Assembly (NCBI RefSeq): GCF_000317515.1
Contig: NC_019738.1
Location: 285,501-349,500, forward strand
DNA length: 64,000 bases
Direction of reading: 5' to 3'
Source: Allocoleopsis franciscana PCC 7113
Lineage (GTDB): Bacteria; Cyanobacteriota; Cyanobacteriia; Cyanobacteriales; Coleofasciculaceae
The notes beneath the pieces are model-generated. The model saw nothing but the letters and a program-made list of their open reading frames with translations, was not told the origin of the DNA and ran no database searches. The position numbers and the translations under genes were made by a program. Positions 32,172 through 38,725 of the stretch are shown piece by piece (within the stretch, counting starts at the first letter, position 1; every line of letters begins with the position of its first letter).

Positions 32172-32468
32172 CTAGTTTTGCAGAATGTAGTGACCGATAA
32201 TCTCTTTGAGTTCTTGAGGCGCTTCAATGGCAATAGCCGCTCCCAAATCGGGACGGACAACCCACCACCAAACTAAGGTTTCCAAAAGGTTGAGTGGCTC
32301 ATTATTGGGACACCATTCGATGAACGATTCATTCACGCCAATAATATTGGCACAAAGGTCATTGGCTATAGCAACACGCTCATCGAGTTGATCGAACTGG
32401 ACGATGTCTTGCCAACGAACTTCATTGGAAATGGATTTTAAGATGGATTGTACGTCTAGGGTAAGCAT
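32172..32468 (-). CDS. Putative immunity protein for the WHH-type toxin
   Basis: A 98-aa acidic protein of unrecognised family with several Trp residues (LLETLVWWWVVRPDLG). Its ATG overlaps the stop of the upstream toxin-like gene by one base (TAATG), the usual arrangement for toxin-immunity pairs. Small size, acidic nature and tight coupling suggest it neutralises that nuclease; the assignment rests on context and not on a family match. Confidence 0.55.
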   Translation of the reverse strand: MLTLDVQSILKSISNEVRWQDIVQFDQLDERVAIANDLCANIIGVNESFIEWCPNNEPLNLLETLVWWWVVRPDLGAAIAIEAPQELKEIIGHYILQN

Positions 32469-32755
32469 TAAACGATTTCTCCAAAAGTTTGAATAACTCT
32501 AATGCCAAAGTCTTGTTGTTCTTCAAAAGATTGAGTACTGAGCCATTCTCTAACTGTGATATCTGATGAGTCGCTTAGAGCGGGTTGTACAGAATTGTAG
32601 AAATTGGTGATTTCTTGATGAATCGAGCCTTTCCCATGTGCGAGTCGAACCAGATTACCTGTGTTATGGATTGCTACAGCACCGAATCTCTGTAAATTTG
32701 ATGTGGTTTGTCCGGCAATATGATGCCAAGTATGTCCCGTGCCAGCAGCGCCCAT
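32468..32755 (-). CDS. Orphan C-terminal toxin tip, WHH-type HNH/EndoVII nuclease (5'-truncated)
   Basis: A 95-aa protein with the signature GHTWHHIAGQ, then NLQRFGAVAIHNTGNLV and later His residues (KGSIHQEITNFY). This matches the tip nuclease of polymorphic toxins in the HNH/EndoVII superfamily (WHH group), as I recall the family. In-frame codons upstream of the ATG, back to a TAG at 32795-32797, still encode toxin-like sequence (FKTFGEFKRA). The gene is therefore likely a fragment left from a larger delivery protein, now starting at an internal Met. No RHS, secretion or delivery domain is nearby. It is translationally coupled to the downstream putative immunity gene. Whether the fragment is active is unknown. 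Confidence 0.65.
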   Translation of the reverse strand: MGAAGTGHTWHHIAGQTTSNLQRFGAVAIHNTGNLVRLAHGKGSIHQEITNFYNSVQPALSDSSDITVREWLSTQSFEEQQDFGIRVIQTFGEIV

Positions 32756-33072
32756 TGCTCTTTTAAATTCACCAAACGTCTTAAAACCTTGACCCTACCT
32801 TTTGGGAGGAATTATGGTTCTTGATGCTAGCTCTCTAGCAAGTGGTCTGGCTATTTATTGTCTGGTTTCGTCTGTCACTTATGTTAGTTCGATCGCACTC
32901 CTCTACTCAATGGTATCTTTAGCGAGCGCTCCTCAGCTTCCCAGGGAAAACAACGTGCGATCGCATTTCCTTTATCTAGTTATAATTCAGCCTTAATCTT
33001 GCGTAGGAAGTAGAAGCGATCGCTCTTCCACTCACTTCCCTCTTTTCGTCTCAAAACATCTCTCCAAACGCA

Positions 33073-33435
33073 TTACGGTAAGGGTAAATACACAATCTGA
33101 TCTTGATATTCATCCTCCTCAGAGGCAAGAGCAGCTAATATCAATTCTTCTAAATTTTCGCCGACACTTAAATTAGGATTTAGAATAAAAATACCTGGCA
33201 CATGACGACCTAGCGCGATGTGGTCAACCAAGTGTACTGGCATAGAGGTGCGGTTATTGGTTACCAGCACAAAATTATTCTCTTCACACCAACAGAGAAT
33301 CTCTGGATCGAGGGTACTTCTCGGAGGTGTTTCCGGTTCTCCCACGACTTTGATAACGATATCGGGTTCTAGCTGTCTAATCTGATTGGGATAAAGGGGA
33401 TTAACATTTTCATCAATCAGATATTTAAGACTCAT
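33073..33435 (-). CDS. DUF5615-like PIN-fold toxin
   Basis: A 120-aa protein with the DUF5615 (Mut7-C-like PIN) pattern: LIDENVNP at the start, DPEILCWCEENNFVLVTNN in the middle and a conserved R-T-S-M-P motif. These proteins are predicted RNases and the toxin half of a common cyanobacterial pair with DUF433 proteins. The gene overlaps the upstream DUF433 gene by 11 nt, as expected for an antitoxin-toxin operon with the antitoxin first. Confidence 0.85.
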   Translation of the reverse strand: MSLKYLIDENVNPLYPNQIRQLEPDIVIKVVGEPETPPRSTLDPEILCWCEENNFVLVTNNRTSMPVHLVDHIALGRHVPGIFILNPNLSVGENLEELILAALASEEDEYQDQIVYLPLP

Positions 33436-33772
33436 TGGCTTGTTTCACTGCTCTTCGTGCTGCCCTCAATTGCCGGAGTTTTTCGGAAACGGGTGGGGGA
33501 TTAAGGCGCTGTTGTTCCCTCATTGTGTGACCGTGTTCGATCCAGTTTCTCATGTATTCGCTAATGGTTTTTCGGTCTTGAAGGTAATAAAGAATTGTGG
33601 CATAGACTTGTTCTAAAGTGAGCGAGGGGTAAGTTTGGGCAATTTCTTCTGGAGAGTGACCGCGATCGATGTAATCGTAAAGAATTGTTTCAATTCCGAT
33701 TCTTGACCCTTTGAGTCGAATATCCCCAGGAGCGAGGAAGTTGAAATAATCAGGAAGCTGTTGAGTGGACAT
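33425..33772 (-). CDS. DUF433 antitoxin-like protein
   Basis: A 115-aa protein with the DUF433 winged-helix core: RLKGSRIGIETILYDYIDRG, SPEEIAQTYPSLTLEQVYATILYYL. It probably binds DNA and neutralises the adjacent DUF5615 protein. First gene of a two-gene operon with an 11-nt overlap. The C-terminal ~40 residues are basic and helical and may hold the toxin-binding part. Confidence 0.85.
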   Translation of the reverse strand: MSTQQLPDYFNFLAPGDIRLKGSRIGIETILYDYIDRGHSPEEIAQTYPSLTLEQVYATILYYLQDRKTISEYMRNWIEHGHTMREQQRLNPPPVSEKLRQLRAARRAVKQANES

Positions 33773-33905
33773 TTATCAGATGCAAAGACTTCTATTAGGT
33801 TTGTTTTATCTTAGCGAAATGGTATTGTCGCGGTGATATATAGAGCGATCGCTTCTCAGTTTGCCAGGAAAAAAAAGGTGCGATCGCATTTCATACATCA
33901 AGTAA

Positions 33906-35021
33906 TCAATCAACCTTAAGCTCGCGCAGGAAGTAGAAGCGATCGCGCCTCCAATCGTCTCCCTCTTTTCGTCCCAAATAACCGGTTAAAGGCGAGGAAA
34001 GCTCAACTAGCATTTCGTGCAGTTTCTCTAACTTCAACGGTTGAGGTGGGTTGGAGATTGCATACGCACCATGAAGGGAATGGACACTGACCCTCTCATT
34101 ACCTGTGTTTTCTAGGTACGTTTTCACAAGCTGAACGATGTGCGATCGCAGCTTAATTTGGCTGGAAACCTGCTCAATATATTTTTCCACCTCATCATCA
34201 GCTTGTCCTGGCTTCAAATATTCCTTCAACTTAAACAAGTCTATTGAGTTGCGATACACAGCTTGAAGTTTGACCAGCTTTTCAAGAGTTTCGGGGTTGA
34301 TAATCGACATACTATGTATTGTTGCGGCGTCTGCTAGTTGCTGAGTCGGTTCACCGGGGCCAATGATTAATTTAGCCGTTTGCTTGAGTAGTTCTTCGTT
34401 TTTCAAGCGTAGCGTTCCCAGATTCAACAGTTGGACTGCCGTATCGTTAGGAATTTTTTTACCTGCCTTACACTCACCAACGAGCGGATAGGGTTTTGAG
34501 CAGAATAAATCTAAGCCACCAGCGCCCCCTTTGTGGGAGTAGTCAATGGTAAATCCTAGGAACTCAAGGCTATCGCGCACAACATTTTCAAAATCTGTTC
34601 CAGCTTGATAGTTGCTTTTTCCAGTATCTTGTTCTTTGCTGCGATTCCCTAAGTCAGCAATACTGTTTATCCAGGCAGGCTGGGAATTAAGTCGCTGGGT
34701 GGGTGAGTTGCTAGCCCACCCTAAGAATTGTCTAAGTTCATTATTCAGCGGTTGGGCATCTGGGTTGTCGAGTTGAGCGATCGCACTTTCCAACTCTTCC
34801 AATTCAGGATGCAATGGTGGCTCTAGCTTTTCCAGTTGGCGGCGGCGTTGGGTGAAGATGCGATCGCTCAATACTGGCGAAGATTCAGTAACACTCAGCG
34901 AATGCGGCAAAGGCACAAACCGAGGGTTAAAATTAACTGGCACTTCCAGTGGCTGAGGTAGCCTATAAACTCTTAGGTAAGCAAGAAAGATATTCCCCCG
35001 CTTTGAGAGAGTTTGCAGCAA
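33906..35021 (-). CDS. PD-(D/E)XK nuclease-like protein of a three-gene cassette
   Basis: A 371-aa protein. The central part (about 138-215) reads as a restriction-endonuclease fold: FENVVRDSLEFLGF, then GGLDLFC (Asp171), then LVGECKAGK (Glu183, Lys185), giving a D-x12-ExK triad. Flanking N- and C-terminal regions are unrecognised. No ATG is available near the start; TTG at 35021 has AAAGGA just before it. The reading frame is the same as that of the upstream ATPase: only one TAG and eight codons separate them. It is the last gene of the cassette with the ATPase and the winged-helix-like protein. Nuclease activity is predicted from motif only. Confidence 0.7.
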   Translation of the reverse strand: MLQTLSKRGNIFLAYLRVYRLPQPLEVPVNFNPRFVPLPHSLSVTESSPVLSDRIFTQRRRQLEKLEPPLHPELEELESAIAQLDNPDAQPLNNELRQFLGWASNSPTQRLNSQPAWINSIADLGNRSKEQDTGKSNYQAGTDFENVVRDSLEFLGFTIDYSHKGGAGGLDLFCSKPYPLVGECKAGKKIPNDTAVQLLNLGTLRLKNEELLKQTAKLIIGPGEPTQQLADAATIHSMSIINPETLEKLVKLQAVYRNSIDLFKLKEYLKPGQADDEVEKYIEQVSSQIKLRSHIVQLVKTYLENTGNERVSVHSLHGAYAISNPPQPLKLEKLHEMLVELSSPLTGYLGRKEGDDWRRDRFYFLRELKVD

Positions 35022-35045
35022 GGCTTCCTTTGTCCATACGGTTAG

Positions 35046-36974
35046 CTATATGTTCAGTTCGATGTTATCTACTGAATCAGATACAGTTTGAGGAATGCTA
35101 ACGGGCATATCTTCATCAAATAAGTTTTCAGGCTCTTGACCAGAAGGATCGCTTAGAATCTCTCGAATGAGAGGGTTATCAATCGCTAACCTCTTGTGCT
35201 GAATAAAATCGATAATTTGCTCCTCGCTCAACTCATAACTTTCACGGTTATCGTGAACAAACAAGATAGCTAAAAGAGGCTTTATGTCTTGAGCCTGCAA
35301 GAGTACCCACTCTCCGCCTTTCTGACTCAAAAGTTTTCTCACACCATCTCTAGCTGCTTTAGCCCCAGGATTAATTTTCTTGGAACGAACTAGGCAACCG
35401 CGAGTTAAGTCAAATTTTTCATAGTCAGTTAGCCGCTTTAATGCAGCTCCCTGATATTTCCCACCTGATTGCTGAAGAACAGCCACTCCAATCTTGACTG
35501 CTTTTTTATTTTCTTTACCGACAACTTTGAAGTGAATGTATCCTTTGTCAGCACTACTGGCTTGAATTTCTTCAATTTCATGAATTGTTACACCTTCTAA
35601 TGTTTGTTTTTTTATAGTCCGTAATGCTAACAATAAAGCATCAGCAATGGCATCATTATTCTCCTCCGACAATACATCTATATCACCTTCAATATTTGCC
35701 AGCTCTGTCTCGAAGTAAGGTTCAACAGGATGGGTGTCCCTTGTTGTTCCTGAACCACCATTACCTGAGCCTGTATTGTCCTTCCCTGTATCGTCATCTG
35801 AAATAGATACAACAAAATGTTCAGCACACCACTTCAAGACCGCTCTTATGGTAGGCTTACCCTTGCCAAGGTCTCTAAGTTTATTTTCATCAAATGGATA
35901 GAAAGGATGAGGTGGATTTAGTTGATTTTCTTCGTAAAAATCTTTCAACCAATAAAAAACTATTGCTAAAACATCATCAGAGTTCAGATAGTTTAAGGTG
36001 ATAGGTTGTCTGTCCCTTTGTTCACTTACCAGCCGATCAATAACCGCTTCTGCTTGTGGCAAAGTCTTAACCTGATCTCTCCAGGTTTCAGGATACATCG
36101 CCAGCAGCAAAACACCGCGTTCGAGGTTATTGTATAAATCTTTTGTTAAGTTGGCAATGACTTGTGCTGCTGTAAAGCCATTATCATCAGCGTCTGCAAT
36201 ATCTAATTCATCAAAGCAAATTACAGGAACTCTGTAGTCACTTGTTATATCTAGAATCTGGCGAATAGTGCTTAATGCTTCCGCTTCCTTGTCCTCTCTC
36301 TTGGGATTGGGGAGTACCATTGTCTCGGCTTGGGTCTGCGTTAATTCAAAGCCAGAGAGCCAATGAGTTGCATAGATAGCATGTGCAGAAGAGAGTGTCC
36401 AAAGAATAGCTTTCACTATGTAGGGATTGTTGATATGAGGCTTTATCTGAAGAATACAATCAGTGAAGTGTTCGACTACTTTGTTTGAATGTTTACTCAA
36501 CCATGATGGAAATAGACTAATATACTGCTGAGGTGTGTAATTCCATTTCTTTCCTTCGTTAATCAAAGTCGCTGCTAGTTCTTGCCACTGCATTACCCCT
36601 TGGTAACTACCAAATGCTCTGAGGCTAGACACTACAGTTTGCAGAAATTGATACTTAATTTGGTTCAGGTTGTCATACTTACTCATGTAGATAAACAAAG
36701 CACCAGTTTCTACCTGCAAACGGTGCCGAATCCGACTGATAATTTGGCTTTTTCCTAGCCCTTTTTCCGCCGTAATAGTAATGCCTACAACTTGACGTTG
36801 CCCTTGACGTACTTGTTTAACGGCTTCCAAAACAGCATTAGAGGCGTGAGCATTGATTGAAGGAACATCAGGAAAACTCTTTGCCCATATCTGCGGTGGT
36901 CTAACAACAGTATGACCTGCGAAGGGATTGTGATTTCTAATGAGGTTGTCGATATTAGATATAGTACTGGTCAT
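35046..36974 (-). CDS. P-loop ATPase of a three-gene cassette
   Basis: A 642-aa protein. The N-terminal ATPase has Walker A AEKGLGKS (Lys75) and Walker B VPVICFDELD (Asp255, Glu256), separated by a long helical insertion typical of STAND/ORC-like P-loop ATPases. An Arg-rich stretch (VSEQRDRQPITLNYL) follows. A Gly/Ser/Thr/Asp linker near 395-420 leads to a C-terminal domain (about 440-640) of unrecognised fold. It lies between the winged-helix gene (44 nt upstream) and the nuclease gene (25 nt downstream). The likely role is ATP-driven sensing or loading for the nuclease. I cannot assign it to a named defence system. Confidence 0.7.
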   Translation of the reverse strand: MTSTISNIDNLIRNHNPFAGHTVVRPPQIWAKSFPDVPSINAHASNAVLEAVKQVRQGQRQVVGITITAEKGLGKSQIISRIRHRLQVETGALFIYMSKYDNLNQIKYQFLQTVVSSLRAFGSYQGVMQWQELAATLINEGKKWNYTPQQYISLFPSWLSKHSNKVVEHFTDCILQIKPHINNPYIVKAILWTLSSAHAIYATHWLSGFELTQTQAETMVLPNPKREDKEAEALSTIRQILDITSDYRVPVICFDELDIADADDNGFTAAQVIANLTKDLYNNLERGVLLLAMYPETWRDQVKTLPQAEAVIDRLVSEQRDRQPITLNYLNSDDVLAIVFYWLKDFYEENQLNPPHPFYPFDENKLRDLGKGKPTIRAVLKWCAEHFVVSISDDDTGKDNTGSGNGGSGTTRDTHPVEPYFETELANIEGDIDVLSEENNDAIADALLLALRTIKKQTLEGVTIHEIEEIQASSADKGYIHFKVVGKENKKAVKIGVAVLQQSGGKYQGAALKRLTDYEKFDLTRGCLVRSKKINPGAKAARDGVRKLLSQKGGEWVLLQAQDIKPLLAILFVHDNRESYELSEEQIIDFIQHKRLAIDNPLIREILSDPSGQEPENLFDEDMPVSIPQTVSDSVDNIELNI

Positions 36975-37018
36975 AGGTTTGTGAAATGAGTAAGTGAGGA
37001 GTGAACGACAATTTAGAA

Positions 37019-37699
37019 TTACAGAAGTCTGGCATAGCAGCGTAATCCATCGAGCTCTGTGGTGATGGAATCTTCAATTTTGTCTGGAGCGCTGTCTTCT
37101 ACACTGCCGCCTTGAAGCTGAAAAATGTCATTAGCCTGCATCTCCATCAGCCACTCACTGAACTGGGAACGGCTAACCCGATCGCCTATTTCCCGCCGAA
37201 TCCGATAAATCGGCACCAAATCATCTAAGTTGTAGTCACGGTTCAGCCTTTCGTAGACTTCCAACGCTACTGGCTTAAACTGATCGTAGGATGCGATCGC
37301 CTTTTCCTTAGTCTTCGCTTTTGCAGCAGGAGTGCTGACAGCACCATCCATCTGTGCAATCCACCTGACTAAGGCATTAGCAACCCAAGTCCCGACAATC
37401 GTTCCCTCAAACTGAAGTTCAGGATTTTTCAGACACTCGCCTAGCCTTGCCACGCCTTGAGGAGAGAGAGAAAATTTATTTTTTTCACTTGCGATCGCGC
37501 CCTCTTTTTCCAATTCATCAAAGATTCCTTGATAGTCTGATGCCTTGTGACTCTTTTGTACAACTCGTTTAGTCAGTTGACCTTTCATCACTTCCGTCTT
37601 AGTTGCGCCCATATCCCACAAGGCAAGCAGCAAGCGAGTTTTGGCTTGCTGTTCGTTAACTCCTGAATCATTAGCTTTGGCTTTATTCTTTGCTGACAT
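37019..37699 (-). CDS. Winged-helix-like protein, first gene of the three-gene cassette
   Basis: A 226-aa protein, unrecognised by name. The first ~90 residues (LLLALWDMGATKTEVMKGQL ... FDELEKEGAIASEKNKFSLSPQGVARL) have the helix and beta-hairpin pattern of a winged helix, and a second such unit may lie near 165-200. This suggests DNA binding, either as an autoregulator or as the recognition subunit. It is preceded by an 18-bp palindrome and a 13-bp inverted repeat. The start ATG is 44 nt upstream-spaced from the ATPase gene on the same strand. Confidence 0.6.
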   Translation of the reverse strand: MSAKNKAKANDSGVNEQQAKTRLLLALWDMGATKTEVMKGQLTKRVVQKSHKASDYQGIFDELEKEGAIASEKNKFSLSPQGVARLGECLKNPELQFEGTIVGTWVANALVRWIAQMDGAVSTPAAKAKTKEKAIASYDQFKPVALEVYERLNRDYNLDDLVPIYRIRREIGDRVSRSQFSEWLMEMQANDIFQLQGGSVEDSAPDKIEDSITTELDGLRCYARLL

Positions 37700-37728: not shown

Positions 37729-37849
37729 CGATAAAAGATTTACAGACTAATCCCTCAAGTTATTGTAACTACGCCGATTAAAAACAATAATCAGGAACGG
37801 CAATATATAATGCTTCCGTAAATTTACGGAAATCTAAAATCTTTTATCG
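37729..37849. promoter_or_regulatory. Operator-like inverted repeats upstream of the cassette
   Basis: A perfect 13-bp inverted repeat CGATAAAAGATTT (37729-37741) / AAATCTTTTATCG (37837-37849) encloses a perfect 18-bp palindrome TTCCGTAAATTTACGGAA (37814-37831). The left arm starts 30 nt before the cassette's first ATG. This fits a control region for a DNA-binding cassette protein, though a relic of a small mobile element cannot be excluded. Confidence 0.65.
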
Positions 37850-37951: not shown

Positions 37952-38725
37952 ATGAAATTTTTAGGAATTGACCTCGGCTGGACTTCAGGAGCAAGTGGTT
38001 TGTGCTGCCTAGAATGGTCAGATGGCAGCCTACAGCTACTAGATTTAAACCGACAGCAAACAACCACAGACATCCTAAATTGGGTAGACCAATGGACGGC
38101 ACCCAGCGAACCCGCCATGATTGCCGTCGATGCCCCCACCCTCATCCCCAACCTCACAGGGATGCGCCTACCCGACAAACTCACCCACCAGCACTTTCGT
38201 CACTATCACGCCGGTTGCTACCCCGCCAATCTCGGACGCCCCTTTGCCCAACACACCATCGAATTTGGTCTAGTCCTAGAAGCACGAGGCTTTACCCACG
38301 CCCCCATCATTACCCCCCAAATTCCAGGACGCTACCAAATCGAAGTCTATCCCCATCCTGCGATCGTGCATCTATTTGGGCTAACCCGCATCCTAAAATA
38401 CAAAAAAGGCAAACTCAGCGATCGCCGCTCAGAACTCCTGAAACTCCACCAATACATCCTCAACATCCTACCCACCCTCACCCCCTCCCTGTGCCCCCCG
38501 TCTCTGTGTGGTTCGTTCCCCCAGGAAATCCCCACCGCCGGAATCGCCCTCAAAGCCGTGGAAGACCAACTCGATAGCCTGATCTGCGCCTATGTCGCCG
38601 CCCACTGGTGGTACTGGGGAAGCGATCGCAACTGGGTACTCGGCGACAGCACCACCGGCTATATCGTCATTCCCGCCCCCACCATCAATCACTCAAAGCT
38701 GAGCGATCGCTTTGTGGCAAAATGA
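37952..38725 (+). CDS. DUF429 family protein (RNase H-like fold)
   Basis: A 257-aa protein with the DUF429 layout: [10 protein letters not shown] at the start (acidic residue in an RNase H-like strand), [12 protein letters not shown] in the middle, then [14 protein letters not shown] and a late acidic pair in [16 protein letters not shown]. Predicted nuclease-like; the biochemical function of the family is not known. It overlaps the longest form of the chlI ORF by 14 nt, but not the preferred chlI start. Confidence 0.85.

Follow-up and report, generated by a model that had tools for sequence, protein, structure and literature searches.

A candidate three-gene restriction-type defence cassette at a site of allele exchange in cyanobacteria

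A 64,000-nucleotide stretch of the Allocoleopsis franciscana PCC 7113 genome (contig NC_019738.1, positions 285,501 to 349,500; the whole stretch is called the window below; source genome 7.97 Mb, 9 contigs) carries a cassette encoding, in order, a winged helix-turn-helix (wHTH) protein, an AAA+ ATPase and a PD-(D/E)XK nuclease. Judged from sequences and predicted structures, the cassette is probably a three-component, ATP-dependent, nuclease-based restriction-type defence system of cyanobacteria. Support for this reading comes from the conservation of the three genes as a unit, their predicted folds, their conserved catalytic residues, allele exchange at a specific site and replacement of the cassette by antiviral genes; from these we infer a defence function, DNA as the substrate and an order of events. 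The wHTH protein would bind DNA, probably its own operator too, the ATPase, of the ORC/TnsC type, would assemble on invading DNA, an ASCH/PUA-like domain of the nuclease would share the task of recognition with the ATPase, possibly by sensing a modified base, and the FokI-like PD-(D/E)XK core would then cut.

Results

The first-pass annotation of this DNA had described three same-strand genes separated by 44 and 25 nt; all three reading frames are open on the minus strand, with a first gap of 44 nt and a second of 24 nt. A survey of homologous neighbourhoods, based on a scan of named genomes with one peptide pattern of which the best 80 were kept, gave 79 loci (L numbers designate loci below). 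In 75 of these the wHTH, ATPase and nuclease genes follow each other in that order on one strand, so the arrangement is not a product of chance. Among 292 cyanobacterial genomes the ATPase was matched in 60, the nuclease in 47 and the wHTH protein in 50, the strong matches lying side by side, and a full-type wHTH protein occurs in 106 of 145 Nostocaceae genomes (about 73% of those sampled). All loci are cyanobacterial except one in a metagenome-assembled genome (MAG) labelled Planctomycetaceae (L181), which is possibly misbinned. Homologues scattered singly in core regions, an outcome that the first-pass annotation had taken to speak against a defence cassette, are rare, though the cassette itself sits among core genes. 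Tandem cassettes are present at L140, L142 and L190, and a second nuclease is encoded at L123, L124 and L187, these second copies lacking the D/E/K motif. In two Symploca MAGs (L138, L139) the family ATPase stands alone in a conserved place, without wHTH or nuclease genes. At L140, L142, L143, L146 and L162 a protein of about 330 amino acids, with a wHTH-like C-terminus and a low-complexity N-terminus, is encoded upstream of the cassette.

The Walker motifs that the first-pass annotation had called clear are conserved accordingly: in Walker A (AEKGLGKS) G72, G74 and K75 are invariant in 49 relatives, and in Walker B (VICFDELD) D255 is invariant and E256 is present in 46 of the 49. In Pfam the window ATPase reaches AAA_16 below the cut-off, and the allele of a sister species scores 21.9 bits against the BrxC_BrxD cut-off of 22.2. 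Residues 1-397 of an AlphaFold model of the window ATPase (predicted local distance difference test, pLDDT, 85.6) align with ORC2, Cdc6, TnsC and MuB at Z 13-15, and BrxC is among the Foldseek matches of the model. The C-terminal domain (residues about 430-610) is similar to PD-(D/E)XK folds in strand order, but there is no conserved acidic ExK motif in it. Because the ATPase aligns with TnsC of both E. coli and Scytonema (Z 14.2-14.7), and the nuclease, with its FokI-like core and C-terminal winged helix, presumably recalls TnsA, the cassette could also be read as a remnant or domesticated Tn7-like transposition module of a TnsA-like nuclease and a TnsC-like ATPase. We regard this as very improbable: ORC and Cdc6 match the ATPase equally well, the position of the cassette is fixed, and the recurrent neighbours and the top families listed for flanking proteins include neither a DDE transposase nor TniQ.

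For the nuclease, the D171, E183 and K185 singled out in the first-pass annotation align with D/E/K in 49 of 52 relatives. In the window copy Pfam recovers no more of DUF1802 than its final third, with a weak Mrr_cat match after it, while full-length relatives comprise an N-terminal DUF1802, a catalytic core like that of FokI and BspD6I, and a winged helix at the C-terminus. In an AlphaFold model of one such relative (L184, pLDDT 86.8), residues 5-161 match ASCH structures (EOLA1, 6kir, Z 9.4, 142 residues aligned at 3.7 Å; TTHA0113, Z 9.0; ZmASCH, Z 8.4), residues 224-402 match N.BspD6I and FokI (Z 13-14.3, 149-174 residues aligned at 3.2-3.6 Å) and the stretch 403-483 resembles the winged helices of ORC proteins (Z about 10). 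The ASCH Z-scores are modest yet believable, and since the whole domain is covered and several independent ASCH entries match, the model makes a credible case that DUF1802 is an ASCH/PUA-like domain. The first-pass description of the first protein as winged-helix has weak sequence support, its matches being to RIO2, MarR and SelB winged helices at E about 0.06-0.1; a DNA-binding role is probable.

In Nostocaceae the cassette usually occupies a fixed address, with the gene order psaE-mutM-ndhO-mdh-cassette-pgi-livM-livG, and the wHTH gene lies within 15 kb of pgi in 65 of the 82 genomes that have pgi on the same contig. At syntenic loci the median identity is 76-91% for flanking genes, 70% for the wHTH protein, 48% for the ATPase and 54% for the nuclease, and at the Nostocaceae mdh-pgi site flanks that are 94-98% identical can enclose ATPases just 40-50% identical; with flanks at 97%, ATPase identity between strains can be as low as 42-50%. 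The same is seen in the genus of the window, where DNA identity is 92-98% on the kaiC and chlI sides and mostly 55-68% in the cassette that they enclose. Crossovers inside genes part the ATPase and ASCH region from the catalytic core: between L125 and L160 DNA identity is about 90% as far as the wHTH gene, falls to 53-67% across the ATPase and ASCH region and reaches 95-96% in the catalytic core; the pair L131 and L125 diverges chiefly in the catalytic core (56%). In pairwise comparisons across 64 loci, identity of the ATPase correlates with that of the ASCH domain at r=0.67 and with that of the catalytic core at r=0.07, though ASCH domain and core form one polypeptide; the Mantel p-values for these correlations ignore phylogeny. 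Such co-exchange suggests that the ATPase and the ASCH domain are coupled in recognition. Mosaicism extends to the window copy: with Symplocastrum it shares 84% identity in the ATPase and 55% in the nuclease, and with genome G203 70% in the nuclease and 47% in the ATPase.

Loss and replacement of the cassette were seen as well. The site is empty in the cassette-less Nostocaceae loci L201, L206 and L212. At the mdh-pgi site of L112 a 32-amino-acid nuclease end remains beside a PDC-S28 helicase (PADLOC E=2e-276). The N-terminal 92 or so residues of the wHTH protein are kept as a bookend in remnant loci; at L102, L120 and L121 such a stub stands with the two genes of a BnzA/BnzB-like system where the interior would be (PADLOC BnzB E about 1e-62, BnzA weak), and L102 retains the nuclease end on the other side of these genes. 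L120 has part of the mdh-side flank, and L102 and L121 lie at other places. At L117 an intact wHTH gene adjoins one for an SNF2/PLD-type protein. Being in turn empty, BnzB-like or of PDC-S28 type, the mdh-pgi site would fit a hotspot, but the neighbours of cassettes elsewhere are mostly ordinary genes. These data also bear on the idea of a genome-maintenance complex, in which an ORC-like loader and a repair nuclease would act on chromosomal DNA and be inherited vertically in cyanobacteria. Its place among core genes, the frequency of the full-type wHTH protein in Nostocaceae and the proximity to pgi would all suit such a complex, but some close relatives have an empty site, the cassette has decayed repeatedly, its alleles have been exchanged far beyond what the flanks show, and antiviral genes have taken its place, so that we find it quite unlikely.

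A tentative explanation, to which we give somewhat less than an even chance, is that the cassette is an immune locus built for exchange, the conserved ends (the 5' end of the wHTH gene with its operator, and the 3' end of the nuclease gene) allowing homologous recombination to swap the interior. The unit of exchange would be a recognition module (ATPase and ASCH domain), a module for cutting (the catalytic core) or an entirely different antiviral system, and close strains would then hold different immune specificities at one chromosomal address.

The nuclease-like protein of the first-pass annotation proved to be the product of a 5'-truncated gene. Every nuclease relative carries 84-143 extra N-terminal residues, which fill DUF1802, and the window copy is short by about 112. 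Across the deletion junction the window frame reads IELNI*LTVWTKEALLQTL, and AGGA lies about 4 nt before a TTG that is a possible start, by its sequence context, for the 371-residue protein. In a sister species of the same genus (L221) the nuclease gene in this position is intact, encodes 484 residues and begins in overlap with the ATPase stop, which makes the truncation a derived state; with this deletion the window allele has probably lost ASCH-dependent recognition. The only other full-length relative in the genome is an orphan paralogue at 5.51 Mb (C1:5512677-5514137; L099:9178-10656), which has no ATPase or wHTH gene beside it and combines an intact ASCH-like domain with a K-to-Q change in the active site. 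Under the exchange of interiors outlined above, the truncated window nuclease and this distant, active-site-altered paralogue may be a split pair.

Whether the window operon is instead decaying, with a nuclease stripped of its start and ASCH domain at a locus that no longer functions, is in our view an even call, and one compatible with a defence role for the family. The truncation is seen in none of about 120 relatives, the sister copy is intact, and a duplicated 145-nt nuclease end and a toxin-antitoxin insert adjoin the operon; yet the ATPase, the wHTH protein and the catalytic residues are all intact, the AGGA-TTG start is possible, and the full-length paralogue, with its intact ASCH-like domain and K-to-Q active site, could complement the loss.

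Upstream of the wHTH gene lies a perfect 18-bp palindrome, TTCCGTAAATTTACGGAA, which is found at the identical place in L221; a 14-bp core of it recurs at -130 in Symplocastrum (L122), whose cassette sits elsewhere in the genome. The 8-Mb genome holds a single copy of this core. The palindrome is limited to the closest lineages rather than family-wide, and its sequence makes it a candidate lineage-specific operator. A conserved, unique palindrome in this position is also what an abortive-infection or toxin-like version of the system would have, in which the wHTH protein represses the operon through the palindrome, infection lifts the repression or sets off the ATPase, and the nuclease degrades the DNA of host and phage without distinction. 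The independent swapping of the nuclease core, as in effector modules, and the lack of a recurrent methyltransferase among neighbour families would fit as well. We nevertheless think this version unlikely, because an ASCH-like sensor and an ATPase of DNA-loading type point to target discrimination and because tandem cassettes, which occur, would be costly if the system were strongly toxic.

Table 1 Features of the cassette and its surroundings (window coordinates).
Feature	Position	Strand	Remarks
wHTH-like gene, 226 aa	37019..37699	-	Probable double winged-helix DNA-binding protein, from sequence matches; first gene of cassette
AAA+ ATPase, 642 aa	35046..36974	-	Predicted ORC/Cdc6-TnsC-MuB-like fold; Walker A/B, AlphaFold model
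PD-(D/E)XK nuclease, 371 aa	33906..35021	-	N-terminally truncated; DUF1802 (ASCH-like) remnant, FokI/BspD6I-like core, C-terminal winged helix
Deletion junction	35022..35048	-	ATPase TAG stop, then in the same frame LTVWTKEA, equivalent to residue ~105 of intact relatives
Perfect 18-bp palindrome	37814..37831	none	Begins at -132 of wHTH gene; candidate operator
145-nt direct repeat, copy 1	32911..33055	none	Orphan nuclease 3'-end remnant beyond the DUF433/DUF5615 pair
145-nt direct repeat, copy 2	33834..33978	none	Nuclease gene end and downstream DNA; 80% identical to copy 1
DUF433 protein	33425..33772	-	Antitoxin-like; Pfam E=5e-12; between repeat copies, not a cassette member
DUF5615 protein	33073..33435	-	PIN-like toxin candidate; Pfam E=2.5e-7; between repeat copies, not a cassette member

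Judged from the translations, the window has kaiABC-like genes (29-32 kb) on one side of the cassette and, on the other, a gene of chlI type (38.7 kb). The island with toxin-antitoxin-type genes described in the first-pass annotation exists locally, as the DUF433/DUF5615 pair adjoining the cassette, and does not extend to the family: the sister species lacks the pair, and the neighbours of 25 cassettes outside the mdh-pgi site are mostly ordinary. The 145-nt repeat around the pair fits the habit of recombination at the ends seen in remnant loci. Beside the repeat remnant are two small open reading frames (window 32175-32755; 98 and 95 amino acids) without a Pfam match. A DUF429 gene (window 37952-38725) matches PDC-S44 in PADLOC (E=7e-108) and was rejected as evidence of a defence island, as 13 of 15 relatives have it, whether or not they carry the cassette; the label of defence candidate may be a false lead here. 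Near the cassettes outside mdh-pgi a few PADLOC matches were seen (among them PDC-S03, Csx1, ShosA, PD-T4-6, REase_II and PsyrA), for which there was no control set and no enrichment is claimed. Cas12f-type matches near these cassettes were set aside as probably IS605 TnpB. No methyltransferase recurs among the neighbour families, nor among the top 25 families listed for 131 flanking proteins.

Discussion

The first-pass annotation had called the cassette phage-defence-like with no match to a named system, and this description has held: PADLOC assigns the three genes to no named system, they are passed on together, and at their site alleles are exchanged, some strains have nothing and others have genes of BnzB or PDC-S28 type instead. 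Several points weigh against a defence role. PADLOC and NCBIfam gave no assignment, the matches in these two and in Pfam and PHROGs being sub-threshold or generic AAA ones, and no relative was found in plasmid, phage or IMG/VR collections, so that nothing points to mobility of the kind that defence systems commonly have. DUF1802 is tied to ASCH by fold only and, on our reading of the alignment, lacks GxKxxExR, the usual ASCH-domain motif. The Bunzi-like label of the replacing genes rests on BnzB, as the BnzA matches are weak. Finally, the neighbours of the 25 cassettes outside mdh-pgi are mostly ordinary genes, and we therefore speak of a site-specific exchange pattern rather than a classical defence island.

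Were a restriction-type role to hold, an undescribed and widespread system would be added to cyanobacterial immunity, DUF1802 would gain a probable fold and role, and the locus would be one of immigration control, where modules for recognition and for cutting are shuffled separately at one fixed address. The question of whether modified DNA is read by ASCH domains would also become open to testing.

Comparison with known systems

Sequence searches of the PDB gave generic P-loop and wHTH matches only, and the literature searched yielded no described system matching the cassette, with DUF1802 found in one unrelated paper. The nearest parallels are restriction enzymes. Modification-dependent restriction enzymes are usually made of a PUA-superfamily sensor joined to a nuclease (PMC7897488); EVE and ASCH domains have been linked to restriction systems (PMC7641849), fusions of winged helix and nuclease act as type IV enzymes dependent on N6-methyladenine (6mA), and the reading of modified DNA (6mA) by ASCH domains is predicted, as yet untested, in the same work (PMC11037411). 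By this analogy and from the L184 model, the cassette possibly senses modified bases.

Like the type IV endonucleases (VcaM4I, MspJI, DpnI and the winged-helix fusions), the cassette nuclease is predicted to unite a PUA-like domain, a PD-(D/E)XK core and a winged helix in one chain, and no methyltransferase recurs among the neighbour families listed for it. Unlike theirs, its operon also holds genes for an ORC/TnsC-type ATPase and a wHTH protein, and its putative sensor is of the ASCH rather than the EVE or SRA type; the modelled likeness to ASCH (Z 8.4-9.4) holds for the relatives, the window copy lacking most of the domain. With McrBC the cassette shares an NTPase gene beside a partner PD-(D/E)XK nuclease, and in principle NTP-driven restriction, but its ATPase is ORC/TnsC-like, the PUA-like domain is on the nuclease rather than the NTPase, a wHTH gene is added, and no match to McrB or McrC was found in Pfam, PADLOC or NCBIfam. 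BREX resembles it in the BrxC/BrxD-type ATPase fold, whereas the three-gene unit has a nuclease and lacks PglZ, the BrxX/PglX methyltransferase and BrxL, with no PADLOC match to BREX. As regards Tn7-like elements, neither a TnsB-type transposase nor TniQ/TnsD is among the recurrent neighbours. The catalytic core shares its fold with the type IIS enzymes FokI and Nt.BspD6I, and the loci that encode an active and a catalytically degenerate nuclease in tandem recall the Nt.BspD6I heterodimers; the cassette nuclease differs in its ATPase partner and ASCH-like N-terminus, and no cognate methyltransferase was seen.

The remaining relative is a distantly related, paralogous cyanobacterial operon (L103-L107, L111), with a wHTH protein of about 280 residues, one to three ATPases of about 700 residues and, as the third gene in several loci, a fusion of DEDD exonuclease, PD-(D/E)XK and FtsK domains of about 860 residues. 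Its nuclease is thus fused to an FtsK-type translocase, and its ATPases are only 20-25% identical to those of the cassette, but it has the same wHTH and ATPase pair with a nuclease as the third gene, which supports a DNA-processing role.

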